This document shows positions 2,507 through 9,354 of a stretch of 14,403 nt of DNA, in pieces. Position numbers and translations under genes: made by a program. Below the pieces are notes generated by a model. That model did not search any database. It was not told where the DNA came from and saw only the letters and a list, made by a program, of their open reading frames with translations. Location of the stretch: positions 1-14,403 of the forward strand of contig JAGOGU010000021.1 in assembly GCA_017996515.1 (NCBI GenBank), read 5' to 3'. Each line of letters begins with the position of its first letter. The first letter of the stretch is position 1. This DNA is from Allobrachymonas sp. (GTDB lineage: Bacteria > Pseudomonadota > Gammaproteobacteria > Burkholderiales > Burkholderiaceae_C).

Positions 2507-3823
2507 ATGTGGAAAAAACTCAAAGCCCATCCGTGGTGGCTCGCAGCAGCCATCCTGCTCTTGCTGCTTCTGCTGTGGGGAGGCTACAAAATCTGGTTTG
2601 CCAAGCCTGCCAGCGCGCCGCTGATCACCGCAACGGTCGAGCGCGGGGATATTGAAAATTCCGTGCTGGCAACCGGCGCCATTCAGGCCTCGCAGTTGAT
2701 CAATGTGGGCTCGCAAGTCAGCGGCCAGGTCAAGAAGCTGCATGTGCAGGTGGGCGATGCCGTCAAGCAGGGGCAGCTGATTGCCGATATCGACGACACC
2801 ACCCAGCGCAACAATCTGCGCGAAGCGCAAGAGCAGGTGGCATCTTTCCGGGCGCAGCGGGCGGCAAAACAATCTTCGCTGGTGCTGGCGCAGCAGAATT
2901 TCGAGCGCCAGAAATACATGTACGAGCGCGATGCCGCCAGCCGCGCCGATTTCCAAAACGCCAAGCAGGCACTGGACGCCGCCCGTGCCGAAATCAAGGC
3001 GCTGGATGCGCAAATTGCCCAGCAGTCCATTCAGGTGGAAACGGCCAAGGCCAATATGGGCTACACCCGCATTACCGCACCGTCAGACGGGGTGGTGGTG
3101 TCCATCGTGACCAAAGAGGGGCAAACGGTCAGCGCCATGCAGTCGGCGCCCACCATCATCAAACTGGCCAATCTGGATAACATGCGCATCGAGGCGCAAA
3201 TTTCCGAAGCCGACGTGCCCAATGTCACCCCCGGCATGCCGGCATATTTCACCATTCTGGGCGATCCCGATACCAGGCACAACGCGGTGCTCAGCAGAGT
3301 GGAACCCGGTCCCATCAACATGAGCAGTTATGAAGGCACCAATACCGACAGCTCCAGCAGCACGGCGGTGTACTACAACGGGATTTTCGATGTGCCCAAC
3401 CCTGATCACCGCCTGCGCATCCAGATGACGGCGCAAGTCACCGTCGTCTTGCAACAGGCTAAAAACGTGCTCACCATTCCTTCAGGCGCCTTGAGCACCA
3501 CACGCAGCGGTGGTGGACGTGGTGGCAAAGGCAGCTCCGCCGCCTCGGCACAAGCTCCTGCACAGGCGACATCTGGCGCAGAGCCGTCGGGCAGCGCAAA
3601 CGTTGGCAATGCGGCAGGTAAAACAGGCAAGCTCTATACCGTACGCGTGGCCAAGGGCGAGCCGGGCAAACAGACCATTGAAGAGCGTCAGGTGCGCATC
3701 GGCCTGAACAACCGTGTACAAGCCGAAGTGCTCGAAGGTCTGCAAGAAGGCGAGCAGGTGGTGATCGGCGACTCCAGCGCCAACCAGAGTAGCGGCATGC
3801 CGCGTGGCGCAAGGATGTTCTGA
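2507..3823 (+). CDS. macA: MacA-type periplasmic adaptor of an ABC efflux pump
   Basis: A 438-residue membrane-fusion (HlyD/MacA) protein that would link the MacB transporter to the outer-membrane channel in the periplasm. It has an N-terminal membrane anchor (about residues 10-26, an LLLLLLLW run) and no lipobox. Domains in order: first half of the lipoyl-like hairpin (about 60-95, [26 protein letters not shown]); a long alpha-helical coiled-coil hairpin (about 98-185); the second lipoyl half ([12 protein letters not shown], 189-200); a beta-barrel domain (about 225-320); and a membrane-proximal domain. The last is interrupted by a Gly/Ser/Ala-rich segment at about 334-372. The start is the only usable ATG, since a stop codon lies in frame 21 bp upstream; no Shine-Dalgarno sequence is visible. 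Its stop overlaps the macB start by one base (TGATG), so translation is probably coupled. MacA identity follows from the macB neighbour; the exported substrate is unknown. Confidence 0.93.
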
Positions 3824-5811
3824 TGCAGGCGGTAACCACCATGTCCACCGCGGCAGCGCCAGCGCAACCTCTGATGCGCTTGCGCGGCGTCGTGCGCGAG
3901 TACCCCGCCGGCAACGAAGTGGTGGCGGTGCTGAAAGATGTGGATCTGGATATTTACGCGGGCGAAATGGTGGCCATCATCGGCCCGTCTGGCTCCGGCA
4001 AGTCCACGCTGATGAATATTCTGGGCTGCCTCGATCGCCCCACGCGCGGCAGCTACGAAGTTAGCGGCAAAGAGACCCGCCAGATGGTGCCTGACGAATT
4101 GGCGCGGCTGCGGCGCGAGCACTTCGGCTTCATCTTCCAGCGCTACCACCTCATGGGCGATTTGAGCGCCATGGGCAATGCAGAGATCCCGGCCATTTAC
4201 GCGGGCGTTGCACCGGCCGAGCGGCACGAGCGCACGCGCAAACTGCTCACGCGGCTGGGCTTGGAAGAGCGCCTGGGCAACAAACCCGGCCAGCTCTCGG
4301 GCGGGCAGCAGCAACGGGTGTCGATAGCCCGCGCGCTGATGAATGGCGGCGACGTGATTCTGGCCGACGAGCCCACCGGCGCGCTGGACCAGGCCAGTGG
4401 CCAGGAGGTGATGAACATCCTCAAAGAGCTGCATGCCGACGGCCACACCATCATTCTGGTGACGCACGATGCCGATGTGGCCGCCAACGCCAACCGCATC
4501 ATCGAAATTCGCGATGGCCGCATCGTGAGCGACCAGAGCAAGAGCGATGCCCAGGTCGCCAAGGTCAAAACCGATCAAGGCCCGGCGCGAAAGGAAACCT
4601 TTGCCGCCGCTTTGGGGCGCCTGAAAGAAGCCGCGCAAATGGCCATACGCGCCATGGTGGGGCATAAGCTGCGCACGCTGCTGACCATGCTGGGCATCAT
4701 CATCGGCATTGCGTCGGTGGTGTCGGTGGTGGCACTGGGCAATGGCTCGCGCGAAAAAATCCTCAGCGACATTGCGAGCATGGGCACCAATACGATTGGC
4801 ATTCTGCCGGGATCGGGCTTTGGCGATCGCACGGCGGGTCGCATCCGCACCTTGGTGGAGGGTGATGCCGTCGCCCTTTCCAAGCTCAGTTATGTCGATA
4901 GCGTTACCCCCGGCGTGAGCACCAGCAAAACCGTGCTGTACAAAAATGTCAGCAAAACGGTCAGTATTTCAGGTGTGGGTTCCGAGTTCTTTCGCGTGCG
5001 CGGCTATACGTTGGACCATGGCGCCCTTTTCGATACGGACAGTGTGCGCCGCCAGATGCAGGATGCCGTGATCGACCCGGGCACCAAAGAAGCCTTTTTT
5101 GCCGAGGGCGAAGACCCCATCGGCAAGGTGCTGCTGGTCGGCAGCATGCCCGCGCGCATCATCGGCGTGACCGAGAAAAAAGACGTGGCTTTTGGCAACG
5201 CCGAATCGCTCAATATCTGGATGCCTTACACCACGGTGATGGGCCGCCTCATGGGCACCAGCTATTTCCGCTCCATCACCGTGCGCGTGCATGATGGCGT
5301 GGACAGCGCAGCCGCGGAAGAGGGCATTACTGCTTTGTTGACTCAACGCCATGGCAGAAAAGATTTCTTTGCCATCAATACCGACAGCATCAAGCAAACG
5401 GTTGAAAAAACCACCCAGACCATGACCTTGCTGATCTCTGCCATTGCCGTGATTTCGCTGGTGGTGGGCGGCATTGGCGTGATGAACATCATGCTGGTGT
5501 CGGTGGCCGAGCGCACACAGGAAATTGGCGTGCGTATGGCCGTGGGCGCGCGCCAAAGCGACATCCTCAAACAGTTTTTGATCGAGGCTGTGCTGGTGTG
5601 CTTGGTGGGCGGTGTGTTGGGCATTGCTTTGGCGCTGTTGATCGGCTTTGTCTTCGACATGCTGGCAGGGGGTGCATTCAGCATGGTCATTTCCACCACC
5701 TCCATCATTCTGGCGTTTGCCTGCTCGACGCTTATCGGCGTGTTGTTCGGCTTTTTGCCCGCGCGCCGCGCCGCCCAGCTTGATCCGGTCGATGCCTTGT
5801 CTCGCCAATGA
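3823..5811 (+). CDS. macB: MacB-type ABC transporter, fused ATPase and permease
   Basis: A 662-residue inner-membrane protein. It uses ATP hydrolysis to drive conformational change in a MacA-TolC type tripartite pump (mechanotransmission). The N-terminal ATPase domain has Walker [10 protein letters not shown] (54-62), Q-loop Gln106, signature LSGGQQQR (158-165), Walker B VILADEP (178-184) and H-loop His215. Four membrane segments follow, at about 285-307, 533-556, 587-612 and 628-650. A large periplasmic domain lies between the first two, the defining MacB topology. Length matches E. coli MacB. The start ATG overlaps the macA stop, with AAGGA seven bases before it. A second in-frame ATG at 3841 is possible but less well placed. 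Family substrates include macrolides, peptides and lipopeptides; which one applies here cannot be read from sequence. Confidence 0.95.
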
Positions 5812-7271
5812 TCCCGTCAATGAAAGTGTTTGCCGTGGAAAAACGCTCTTTCCCTCGCCGCCATGCGACAACCATCGCTGCCGCCTGTGCCGCAGCGCTG
5901 CTCGCAGGCTGCGCCAACACGCCGTACCAGCAACCGGCGCTCAATCTGCCTGCGCAGTGGCAACACGCGGCCGAAGGCCAAACCCAAACGGCGGCAGACG
6001 CCACCTATGGCGACCGTTGGTGGACGGCCTTTGGCGACGAACAGCTCAACACGCTGATTGATCTGGCACTGCAACGCAACAACAATCTGGCGGCCGCCGC
6101 CTACACCGTGCGCAACGCCCAACTGGAAGCGGGCAACGCCGCGGGCGACCGCCTGCCCACGCCCAGTGCCGGCCTCAATTACAACCGCAGCCGCGAACTC
6201 ACCGGCGCAGAAAACACCAACCGCAGCTACAACGCCAACCTGGGCGTGAGTTGGGAAATTGACCTGTGGGGCAAGCTGGCCGCTGCCCAGCGCCGCGCCG
6301 AGTGGGAAGCCCGTGCCACCGAGCAAGACCGCCAAGCCACCGCGCAGGCATTGGTCGCCACGGTAGCCACCATTTATTGGGAGCTGGCCACGCTCAACCA
6401 CAAAATTACCAGCCAACAGCAAAGCGTCACCACTGCCGCCAAAACGCTGGAGCTGGCGCAGGTGCAGCACCAGGCGGGCGCCATTTCGGGGTTGGGTGTG
6501 GCGCAAGCCCGCCAAACAGAAGCCAGCCAGCGCGCCATGCTGGCCGATCTGGAGCAGCAGCGCGTGGAAAAACGCAATGCCCTCGCCATTTTGTTTGATG
6601 CCCCGCCCGAGCAATTGCCCGAAGCGGCACACAACCCGCACCTGCCCGATCTGGCGCAGCTACCCCCTGTGCCTGCGGGCTTGCCTGCTTCCATTCTGGC
6701 GCGTAGGCCCGATCTGCAAGCGGCAGAGCAACGCCTGCGCAAAAGTCTGGTTCATGTCGATGTGGTGCGCACCAGCTACTACCCCACGCTGAGCCTGACA
6801 GGCGCGCTGGGCGGCAGCAGCACCTCGCTGTCGAACGTATTGGCCAACCCCGTTGCCACGCTGGGCGCGGGGCTGGCGCTGCCTTTCCTGAGGCTGGGCG
6901 AAATGCAACGGAATACGGCCATCGCCCGCAACAGTTACGAGCAGGCCATCATCCACTTCCGCCAAACGCTCTACGCCGCACTGGCCGATGCCGAAAACGC
7001 CCTGTCTGCCCGTACCCAGTTGCAACAGCAGTCCGACCAGCAAGCCATTGCTCTGGAGCAGGCCAAACGCGCCGAGCAACTCACCGAAGTGCAATACCGT
7101 GCGGGAGCCGTGCCGCTGAAAACCTGGCTCGATGCGCAAGAAAGCCGCCGCAGCGCCACGCTGGCCTGGCAAAACGTGCAGCTGGCACGTGCCATTAACC
7201 AAGTCACGCTGTACAAAGCATTGGGCGGCAGTGCTGTCTTACCTGCTGTTACTCCCACTGCTACAAACTAG
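5808..7271 (+). CDS. NodT/TolC-family outer-membrane efflux lipoprotein
   Basis: A 487-residue outer-membrane factor that would form the trimeric exit duct for MacAB. A signal sequence (basic RSFPRRH, then a hydrophobic Ala/Leu stretch) ends in a lipobox LAGC, with Cys35 as the lipidated residue. Two repeats of the outer-membrane efflux domain follow, with long Gln/Ala-rich helices. The hallmark [13 protein letters not shown] lies near residues 295-307 and [20 protein letters not shown] in the C-terminal half. The ATG at 5808 overlaps the macB stop (ATGA). An alternative ATG at 5820 gives a slightly shorter signal peptide (Cys at 31), equally typical. The overlap shows that adaptor, transporter and channel are one operon and probably one pump. 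No intrinsic terminator is seen after it. Confidence 0.93.
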
Positions 7272-7314: not shown

Positions 7315-7971
7315 ATGTTGCAGCGCTACCCCTTGATTGTTTTTGACTGGGACGGCACCTTGTTCGATTCCGCAGGCAATATCGTGCGCAGCCTGCAAGC
7401 CGCCGTGGCCGAATTGGGCGGCACGCCCCCGAGCGACGAAACGGCGCGCCACGTTATCGGTCTGGATTTGCAGCAGGCGCTGCAACTGGCCGCGCCCGAC
7501 GTGCCCGCCTACCGCCACCCCTTGCTGGCACAAGCCTACCGGGCGCAATACCGCAAGCACCAAGGCGACATCACCCTGTTTACAGGCGCGCACGACATGC
7601 TGCTCAGCCTCAAGGGCAAAGGCCATATGCTGGCAGTTGCCACCGGCAAAAGCCGCACCGGATTGAACGAAGCACTCGATGCCGTGGGCCTGAGCCATAT
7701 GTTCGACGCTACCCGCACCGCCGACCAAACGGCGGGCAAGCCCGATCCCCTCATGCTGCATGAATTGATGGACGAGCTGAACACCGCTCCTGTGCAAACC
7801 CTGATGGTGGGCGACACTACGCACGATCTGCTCATGGCGCACAACGCCGCCTGCCCGGCAGTAGCCGTCACCTATGGCGCGCACGACACAACGGGCTTGG
7901 CCGCGCTGTGGCCTTTGTACACCGCCACATCGCTGCACGATCTGCACCAGTGGCTGCTGGCGAATGCCTGA
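7315..7971 (+). CDS. HAD-family hydrolase, phosphoglycolate-phosphatase-like
   Basis: A 218-residue cytosolic HAD (subfamily IA) phosphatase. Motif I is DWDGT at 11-15, with nucleophile Asp11 and acid/base Asp13. Motif II is Thr110 in VATGKS. Lys142 is in GKPDP, and motif IV is GDTTHD at 166-171, which binds magnesium. The helical cap lies at about 18-85. The family removes phosphate from small metabolites such as 2-phosphoglycolate or related sugars and nucleotides; the substrate is not predictable here. It starts 43 bp after the efflux operon. A CATAAT hexamer at 7273-7278 could be its own -10, but no -35 supports it, so read-through from the efflux operon is also possible. No Shine-Dalgarno sequence is evident. 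It ends 84 bp before the aroG leader ORF. Confidence 0.92.
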   Translation: MLQRYPLIVFDWDGTLFDSAGNIVRSLQAAVAELGGTPPSDETARHVIGLDLQQALQLAAPDVPAYRHPLLAQAYRAQYRKHQGDITLFTGAHDMLLSLKGKGHMLAVATGKSRTGLNEALDAVGLSHMFDATRTADQTAGKPDPLMLHELMDELNTAPVQTLMVGDTTHDLLMAHNAACPAVAVTYGAHDTTGLAALWPLYTATSLHDLHQWLLANA

Positions 7972-8016
7972 TGCGGCTGCGTGCGGCTTGCGTTCCGAGC
8001 ACGGATGCTTGTAAAA

Positions 8017-8048
8017 GTGTCACCCATTTGTCAGCTTTGTGGTATATT
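8017..8048 (+). promoter_or_regulatory. Candidate extended -10 promoter for the aroG leader
   Basis: TATATT at 8043-8048 matches five of six -10 positions. It is preceded by TGG at 8040-8042, giving the extended -10 motif TGnTATATT. The best -35-like hexamer, GTGTCA at 8017-8022, matches four of six but sits at a long 20-bp spacing; the extended -10 may compensate. TTGTCA at 8028-8033 matches better but lies only 9 bp away. The predicted start of transcription is about A8056, the first base of the leader peptide ATG. Confidence 0.5.
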
Positions 8049-8055
8049 GGCGTCC

Positions 8056-8124
8056 ATGCAAGTTTCCTGCGCTTTTTATTTTTGGTTTGCCTTTCATCCA
8101 GTCCCCGGTGGACAGGAGGTTTGA
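8056..8124 (+). CDS. Aromatic-rich leader peptide of the aroG attenuator
   Basis: A 22-codon ORF whose codons 7-13 read FYFWFAF: Phe TTT at codons 7, 9, 11 and 13, Tyr TAT at 8 and Trp TGG at 10. This density of aromatic codons before a terminator and a DAHP synthase gene is the hallmark of a ribosome-mediated attenuation leader. The classic parallel is the Phe-rich pheA leader of enterobacteria. Scarcity of charged tRNA-Phe (or Tyr/Trp) would stall the ribosome at 8074-8094 and favour the antiterminator. The peptide itself probably has no function. No Shine-Dalgarno sequence precedes the ATG. Instead an extended -10 lies seven bases upstream, suggesting leaderless translation. A perfect AGGAGG (8114-8119) sits inside the ORF, two bases before its TGA stop. 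The ORF is real as pattern; its translation is inferred. Confidence 0.82.
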   Translation: MQVSCAFYFWFAFHPVPGGQEV

Positions 8125-8185
8125 GCACACCACGAAGCGCCAGACTGTAAAACCGCCGAGGACGTAAAGCCCGGCGGTTTTTTTT
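8097..8185 (+). promoter_or_regulatory. Transcription attenuator: 1:2 hairpin, antiterminator and terminator
   Basis: Three competing helices can be drawn. (1) A protector/pause hairpin pairs 8097-8104 with 8110-8117: seven pairs, one A-A mismatch, five-base loop. (2) An antiterminator pairs 8101-8111 with 8153-8163: ten of eleven positions pair, including one G-U, with a single C-A mismatch. (3) The terminator pairs 8149-8158 with 8172-8181. Helix 2 uses bases from both helix 1 and helix 3, so the states are mutually exclusive, as in trp/phe attenuators. A ribosome stalled on the aromatic codons (8074-8094) would hinder helix 1 and allow helix 2. A ribosome reaching the stop at 8122 would cover the 5' arm of helix 2 and let the terminator form. 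Pairings are read directly; the switching is inferred. Confidence 0.8.
8149..8185 (+). terminator. Intrinsic terminator of the aroG leader (attenuator)
   Basis: AAAACCGCCG at 8149-8158 pairs perfectly with CGGCGGTTTT at 8172-8181 around a 13-base loop. Counting from the end of the GC part of the stem, eight T residues follow (8178-8185). It sits 42 bp before the aroG start codon, so it ends transcription before the gene unless the antiterminator forms. Confidence 0.93.
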
Positions 8186-8226
8186 ATGCGTGCTTTGGCA
8201 TGCCCCCCTTTTGTTCGAGGAATTTC

Positions 8227-9354
8227 ATGTCACCCAAATCTGCAACCGAACATGTCTGGTACGGCCAGCCCGAAGACAAAACCAGCCGAACAGATGACAA
8301 TCGCATCCAGAGCCTGACGGTGCTGCCCCCACCCGAGCACCTGATCCGCTTCTTTCCCATCAACGGTTCACCCGTCGAGGCGCTGGTGGCGCAAACCCGC
8401 CAGGCCATCCAGAAAATCGTGCACGGCCAGGATGATCGGCTGCTGGCCATCGTGGGGCCATGCTCCATTCACGACCCCAAGGCGGCGCTGGACTATGCGC
8501 AACGCCTGGTGAAACTGCGCGAACAGTACAAAGACACGCTGGAAATCGTGATGCGCGTGTACTTTGAAAAACCCCGCACCACCGTGGGCTGGAAAGGGCT
8601 TATCAACGACCCCTATCTGGACGAAAGCTGCCGCATCGACGAAGGCTTGCGCGTGGCGCGCCAGTTGTTGATCGACATCAACCGCATGGGGCTGCCCGCG
8701 AGCAGCGAATTTCTCGACGTCATCTCGCCCCAGTATGTGGGAGATCTCATCAGCTGGGGCGCCATTGGCGCGCGCACCACCGAAAGCCAGGTGCACCGCG
8801 AACTGGCCAGCGGCCTGTCGGCGCCCATCGGCTTCAAAAATGGCACCGATGGCAACATCCGCATCGCTACCGATGCGATTCAGGCCGCAGCGCGCGGCCA
8901 CCACTTTTTGTCGGTGCACAAAAACGGGCAAGTTGCTATTGTCGCCACCAAAGGCAATCCGGACTGCCACGTCATTCTGCGCGGCGGCAAAGCGCCCAAC
9001 TACGATGCGCAAAGCGTGCAGGCCGCCAGCGTCGCGCTCGAAGCGGCCGGGCTGCGCCCCAGCGTCATGGTGGATTGCAGCCACGCCAACAGTTATAAAA
9101 CGGCCGAGCGCCAGACCGAAGTGGCGCAGGCCATTGCCGAGCAAGTGTCCAATGGCTCGCACGCCATTTTTGGCGTCATGGTCGAAAGCCATATCCAGGC
9201 CGGAGCGCAAAAATTCACCCCCGGCAAAGACGACCCTCGCCAGCTCGAATACGGCAAAAGCATCACCGATGCCTGCCTGGGCTGGGACGACACGGCGCAG
9301 CTGCTGCAAACCCTGTCAGATGCCGTGCAGGCGCGGCGGCAGAAGAGTCAATAA
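8227..9354 (+). CDS. aroG: Class I 3-deoxy-D-arabino-heptulosonate 7-phosphate (DAHP) synthase
   Basis: A 375-residue cytosolic enzyme. It condenses phosphoenolpyruvate with erythrose 4-phosphate, the first committed step of aromatic amino-acid synthesis. It aligns from memory with E. coli AroG/AroF/AroH throughout. Visible residues are metal ligands Cys79 (GPCSIHD), His286 (DCSHANS), Glu320 (VMVESH) and Asp348 (SITDAC), and the PEP/E4P-binding stretches KPRTTVGWKG (115-124) and GFKNGTDGN (202-210). I chose the ATG at 8227 because GAGGAA lies four bases upstream. An in-frame ATG at 8200 has no such site. The leader peptide and terminator upstream predict control by aromatic amino-acid supply. 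Phe is the likeliest main signal because four of six aromatic leader codons are Phe. Which amino acid inhibits the enzyme itself cannot be told by eye, so the symbol is used in the broad sense. Confidence 0.95.
   Translation: MSPKSATEHVWYGQPEDKTSRTDDNRIQSLTVLPPPEHLIRFFPINGSPVEALVAQTRQAIQKIVHGQDDRLLAIVGPCSIHDPKAALDYAQRLVKLREQYKDTLEIVMRVYFEKPRTTVGWKGLINDPYLDESCRIDEGLRVARQLLIDINRMGLPASSEFLDVISPQYVGDLISWGAIGARTTESQVHRELASGLSAPIGFKNGTDGNIRIATDAIQAAARGHHFLSVHKNGQVAIVATKGNPDCHVILRGGKAPNYDAQSVQAASVALEAAGLRPSVMVDCSHANSYKTAERQTEVAQAIAEQVSNGSHAIFGVMVESHIQAGAQKFTPGKDDPRQLEYGKSITDACLGWDDTAQLLQTLSDAVQARRQKSQ

Follow-up and report, generated by a model that had tools for sequence, protein, structure and literature searches.

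A predicted ribosome-mediated attenuator with a probably leaderless leader peptide upstream of a DAHP synthase gene in Burkholderiaceae_C

Analysis of a 14,403-nucleotide stretch of DNA from Allobrachymonas sp. (the window) together with related loci indicates that its DAHP synthase gene is very likely controlled by a classical ribosome-mediated transcription attenuator, whose leader peptide would be translated from a leaderless start. The regulated gene is located on the forward strand at 8227-9354, encodes a 3-deoxy-7-phosphoheptulonate synthase of the aroFGH type as judged by NCBIfam TIGR00034 (531 bits, with a cut-off of 173) and is preceded by the Shine-Dalgarno sequence GAGG at 8218-8221, with a longer ORF from 8200 as an in-frame alternative. 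Ahead of it, on the same strand, 8056-8185 contains a leader ORF, three competing helices and a terminator, which are the attenuator parts that the original prediction had placed there. The source genome is fragmentary (62% complete), and the closest named match of the window is a Brachymonas MAG with 90% protein identity. Further upstream, at 2507-7271, an operon-like efflux set is observed, comprising a periplasmic adaptor, a MacB-like ABC transporter and a NodT-type outer membrane protein, of which the NodT-type protein was tested against the family library and the other names are based on a reading of the translations.

The leader ORF at 8056-8124 (MQVSCAFYFWFAFHPVPGGQEV) consists of 22 codons followed by a TGA stop codon at 8122-8124, and is predicted to be leaderless. 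Its control run at 8074-8094, codons 7-13, reads F7 Y8 F9 W10 F11 A12 F13 and thus contains six aromatic residues in seven codons, in agreement with the 22-codon ORF starting at ATG 8056 and the FYFWFAF run described beforehand. Downstream of this run, segment 1 (8097-8104), the 5' arm of the pause helix 1:2, pairs with the 3' arm at 8110-8117 in seven of eight positions with a single A.A mismatch. Segment 2 (8101-8111), which resembles the 3' arm of the terminator, constitutes the 5' arm of the antiterminator 2:3 and pairs in 10 of 11 positions, with one C.A mismatch and one G.U pair, with segment 3 (8153-8163), identified from the sequence and the alignment. Segment 3 overlaps the 5' arm of the terminator 3:4 at 8149-8158, which pairs in all ten positions with segment 4 (8172-8181). 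The three helices proposed earlier are therefore present in the sequence, and they are mutually exclusive, as is typical of attenuators of the trp/phe type. The previously noted eight-T tail exists as a run of T at 8178-8185, forming the U-tract of the intrinsic terminator, but is not separate from the stem, in which its first four T's are base-paired as well. The ATG of the DAHP synthase gene at 8227 is situated 42 bp past 8185, the distance originally given, and an intrinsic terminator placed ahead of a gene of the pathway concerned is another feature of trp/phe-type attenuators. The predicted fold of the leader RNA has an energy of -47 kcal/mol as compared to a shuffle mean of -35.3 (z -3.2), and is better than 200 of 200 shuffles. 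A simple scanner run over 7500-8500 reported neither a promoter nor a terminator: the terminator was missed because its arms are 13 nt apart (8159-8171), above the 8-nt loop limit of the program, and the promoter because the rules require a -35 hexamer and the window is without a clear -35 box.

Conservation was examined in 81 DAHP synthase loci, i.e. the window and 80 relatives. An aromatic-rich leader ORF was found upstream of DAHP synthase in 71 of them (window included), so that the conserved aromatic codon runs whose presence in relatives had been proposed as a check are indeed there, and in these 71 loci the leader is accompanied by a hairpin and then a run of at least four T, located 115-138 nt past the leader ATG (for some loci the distance is that to a second T-run). 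The ten exceptions are four Polynucleobacter and two Cupriavidus loci, L074, L078, L080 and L054; the contig of L054 ends at the DAHP synthase gene, and the other nine have the gene without a detected leader. The Polynucleobacter exceptions are L036, L043, L045 and L050 and the Cupriavidus ones L053 and L058, whereas Polynucleobacter L042 and L048 do carry a leader; lineage-specific losses or replacements are possible in the loci that are without it. When the 71 leader loci were used to build a covariance model (R1), it matched 194 of the 200 genomes sampled from the host family, Burkholderiaceae_C, representing 137 of 141 genera, as well as 76 of 300 genomes of the host order (nine of these from the host family) and 14 of 369 genomes of the host class (three from the host family and 11 outside), all of these counts being lower bounds, because large searches use stricter filters and lose weak matches. 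DAHP synthase was present in 69 of 82 loci fetched from such matches, and the 13 loci without it were all weak (E of at least 2.7e-4), some of them cut by contig ends. In L183, L186 and the DAHP synthase matches in G030 and G001, the DAHP synthase alignments contain one TGA inside, which may be the gene's own end. A chance coincidence of ORF and hairpin is ruled out by the frequency of the leader among the loci and of R1 matches in the host family.

The same evidence bears on whether the hairpin could simply terminate transcription of the HAD-type phosphatase gene upstream in a constitutive manner, with the aromatic ORF being incidental. Such an arrangement would suit the position of the phosphatase ORF, which ends at 7971 on the same strand, 85 bp before the leader ATG. 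However, the joint occurrence of leader and terminator in 71 of the 81 DAHP synthase upstream regions, the R1 matches in 194 of 200 genomes and the compensatory changes in helix 1:2 described below all argue against it, and this explanation is regarded as highly improbable.

Covariation was assessed on an alignment of the 71 leader loci (A1), in which about ten rows are shifted by one column; the shuffle controls for all three helices ignore the relatedness of the loci. Helix 1:2, which in relatives is mostly TTCTC/GAGAG in a register slightly unlike that of the window, is paired in 91% of cells, and nine cells are changed on both sides, a number reached by 0 of 500 shuffles. These double changes are distributed over four of five pairs (reached by 12 of 500 shuffles), and slid controls gave lower values. 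Helix 3:4 is paired in 96.7% of cells over the 71 loci, and one of its pairs has changed from G-C to A-U in three cells. Helix 2:3 is paired in 84.5% of cells with little variation, and its covariation over the 71 loci is not beyond that of shuffles (92 of 500 reach it); since this helix varies little, covariation neither supports nor refutes it. When arms were permuted and compared by duplex energy, again ignoring relatedness, the result was weak for 1:2 (11 of 300 reach) and better for 2:3 (1 of 300), and the anchored 2:3 helix had a mean length of 6.8 as compared to 5.1 in shuffled segments, a modest gain. Thus, the compensatory changes anticipated for three helices are present in 1:2 and 3:4, but 2:3 exhibits conserved complementarity only.

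With these elements, a coordinated sequence of events can be proposed for the attenuator. RNA polymerase would start at, or within one or two bases of, the A of the leader ATG from an extended -10 element at 8040-8048, and translation would begin on the 5'-terminal AUG without a Shine-Dalgarno sequence. When Phe-tRNA is scarce (or Tyr- and Trp-tRNA, as far as their codons count), the ribosome is expected to stall at codons 7-13 and cover segment 1, which would free segment 2 for pairing with segment 3, prevent formation of the terminator and permit transcription of the DAHP synthase gene. With plentiful aromatics, a ribosome that reaches the stop codon would instead cover segment 2, allowing 3:4 to form and transcription to terminate at about 8185.

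This switch was modelled by folding the leader RNA as it exists before segment 4 is made, with a ribosome placed at chosen codons. In the window, pairing of 2:3 was 0.33 without a ribosome, 1.00 with a ribosome stalled at any aromatic codon and 0.00 with a ribosome at the stop codon; that a stall frees segment 2 and the stop position covers it is also characteristic of trp/phe-type attenuators. The corresponding means over the 71 loci were 0.41 without a ribosome and 0.35 at the stop codon, and for stalls 0.98 at the best position and 0.81 at the last aromatic codon. The best aromatic stall gave a 2:3 pairing of at least 0.5 in 71 of 71 loci, a ribosome at the stop codon failed to keep 2:3 below one half in 27 of 71, and 27 of 71 favour 2:3 even without a ribosome. 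In this model, the window behaves as a textbook switch, and some of the relatives switch less cleanly. Taken together, the conserved ORF, helices and terminator and the footprint folding support the ribosome-mediated attenuation originally suggested.

As regards the amino acids that could be sensed, Phe is present in all 71 leaders, Tyr in 68 and Trp in 60, with all three in 59, and the mean numbers of codons per leader are 4.3 for Phe, 1.6 for Tyr and 0.9 for Trp, which fits the earlier view that Phe is dominant. In L002, the closest relative, the run retains Phe only. Phe can hence be considered as the constant signal, since it occurs in every leader and is the sole aromatic residue left in the L002 run, and from the codon composition it is plausible that the leader senses general aromatic supply.

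A distinctive aspect of this leader concerns its start, which was overlooked in the original prediction: an extended -10 promoter box at 8040-8048 (TGGTATATT), a missing Shine-Dalgarno sequence and a probable leaderless start. On the forward strand, TGTGG-TATATT at 8038-8048 is followed by seven bases (8049-8055) and then by the leader ATG. The pattern TGnTAnnnT ends 6-8 nt before the leader ATG in 64 of 71 loci, as compared to 1 in 20,945 background positions, with a spacer of 6 nt in 15 loci, 7 nt in 35 and 8 nt in 14, and seven of the 71 loci are without it at the leader ATG. C at position -1 of the leader ATG is found in 58 of 71 loci, and a Shine-Dalgarno core before it in only 1 of 71, the window being without one. 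The anti-Shine-Dalgarno duplex has a mean of -2.6 at the leader ATG, -4.0 at random upstream sites and -5.6 at the DAHP synthase start, and is thus weakest at the leader; for the DAHP synthase start, the best of the in-frame starts was used, a choice in favour of that start. A -10 matrix not trained on the 71 loci scored at least 4 in 93% of these loci, with control positions reaching this score in 0.4%; for 25 loci of other families, the corresponding values were 48% and, in controls, 2.2%. In a second set of host-family loci (window included; overlap with the first unchecked), the -10 pattern was observed in 39 of 41. L137, L138, L140 and L153, which belong to another family, have a DAHP synthase leader reading MSAKFYFYFFWHLRPLADREG or near to it, and in these four neither a Shine-Dalgarno core nor a clear -10 at leaderless distance was found. 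Based on the distance from the -10 element, the +1 position should coincide with the A of the leader ATG or lie one or two bases from it, and from promoter spacing and the missing Shine-Dalgarno sequence the leader ORF is very probably leaderless.

The same attenuator could also be transcribed from a start further upstream, with the ORF read from an ordinary or longer 5' leader and TGnTAnnnT serving as a second or minor promoter. In-frame starts upstream of the leader ATG exist in 59 of 71 loci (ATG in 25; SD-like energy in 38), the frame in the window stays open upstream past an ATG at 8005, and the -10 is unclear in about half of the 25 loci of other families, all of which would be compatible with such a start. 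Against this stand the 6-8 nt spacing (64 of 71 loci), the C directly before the ATG (58 of 71) and the scarcity of Shine-Dalgarno cores (1 of 71). Moreover, because the spacer between the -10 and the ATG is 6, 7 or 8 nt, the upstream frame shifts between relatives. An upstream start is therefore judged improbable, and initiation on the 5'-terminal AUG is retained as the preferred reading.

The leader belongs to one DAHP synthase copy. Among 40 sampled host-family genomes (own genome included), 23 contain at least one further DAHP synthase, 49-60% identical, and an aromatic-rich short ORF was absent upstream of 19 of 20 second copies inspected; the sole second copy with such an ORF, L271, has a different peptide. 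Attenuation of every DAHP synthase copy is not supported, given these 19 copies. A leader before ilvB was also sought, and among 25 loci examined (30 fetched) an ORF was found in L238 only, which was unconvincing. At trpE (L193-L219), a short ORF with RGAWPWR or near to it was present in 26 of 27 loci examined (30 fetched), and in 23 of these 26 an ATG of this ORF lies 6-10 nt past the end of TGnTAnnnT. The aro leader is therefore not alone in having an extended -10 combined with a short ORF. A T-run terminator was absent at most of the host-family trpE leaders examined, and their consensus fold revealed one short shared hairpin only; peptide arrest, translational or Rho-linked attenuation may be considered as candidate mechanisms at trpE.

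These observations tentatively point to a wider arrangement, in which the aro and trpE attenuators of this lineage may form a leaderless system that uses one type of extended -10 (TGnTACAYT) and senses via 70S-type initiation, and whose steadily made leader RNA could act in trans; this is a possibility that we would entertain without favouring it. If it is true, sensing would shift with the state of initiation factors and ribosomes as well as with tRNA charging. For the aro leader itself, a second role in addition to attenuation could be envisaged, with the terminated RNA of roughly 130 nt or the peptide acting in trans, as the combination of a leaderless ORF with a short, terminated transcript resembles the rnTrpL/peTrpL pair of Sinorhizobium in the available text of PMC7298713. 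Since the cis switch can explain the conserved stretches, such an additional function is considered unlikely.

Physiologically, these results point to a likely regulator of entry into aromatic synthesis in a large bacterial family, and offer a well conserved, ready case for studying attenuation from a leaderless ORF in common environmental bacteria of the laboratory. The leader element is also a candidate RNA family for Rfam. No Rfam family matched the window at its gathering score and no leader family did so in 10 relatives tested, so that a known Rfam family was rejected, with weak sub-threshold matches only. The closest leader family below threshold, Phe_leader RF01859, resembles the element in being a phenylalanine leader-peptide cis-regulator; however, the window is below its gathering score (19.3 bits as compared to 55). 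In E. coli, aroG is mainly controlled by TyrR. In a 2016 survey of proteobacteria, the TyrR and TrpR regulons discussed belong to gammaproteobacteria, as far as its available text goes (PMC5343134), and the available part of PMC8632094 states, citing a 1980 paper, that E. coli aroF had been hypothesized to be subject to attenuation. A description of a DAHP synthase attenuator in betaproteobacteria was not found in the open-licence literature, which is in line with the earlier suggestion that such attenuation may be little described in this lineage, and which carries little weight as evidence. Burkholderia cenocepacia and Cupriavidus metallidurans are described as having leaderless mRNAs in the available texts; the main texts of these transcript maps contain no mention of aroG, leader peptide or the enzyme names looked for (in PMC5688073, 'leader' was checked), and 82 transcripts with short 5' UTRs are tabulated in the supplement of PMC5688073.

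All ingredients of the proposed attenuator are already known, from aroR-aroF of Corynebacterium and from leaderless leaders in Sinorhizobium and Streptomyces, and what distinguishes the DAHP synthase leader is its probably leaderless start, together with its wide conservation. The aroR-aroF attenuator of Corynebacterium glutamicum was reportedly described by Neshat et al. in 2014. By the published descriptions, as available, it resembles the present case in having a Phe-Tyr-Phe leader peptide before DAHP synthase, where stalling raises transcription under Phe limitation (PMC11802643, PMC4046766). It differs in belonging to the Actinobacteria, in that a Trp codon is not mentioned in those descriptions and in that Tyr availability is said to have no effect (PMC11802643). 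The uORFC-13-1 motif upstream of Acholeplasma aroF, a predicted Phe-sensing short ORF, similarly combines a short Phe ORF with a terminator before DAHP synthase, but is known from distant bacteria, its consensus includes a ribosome-binding site, and it is reported with at least one Phe codon and 24 representatives in the available account (PMC8632094). As to the start, leader peptides of Streptomyces lividans for trpE, leuA, ilvBHC and others share a leaderless attenuator peptide of the kind predicted here, but are from Actinobacteria and concern other amino acids, according to the consulted portion of PMC8079986. A parallel within Proteobacteria is trpL of Sinorhizobium meliloti, where, in the text available from PMC7298713, the ATG of the leader peptide is the RNA 5' end, as is predicted here, and transcription attenuation operates; it differs in having Trp codons, in controlling trpE(G), in belonging to the Alphaproteobacteria and in having been demonstrated experimentally.
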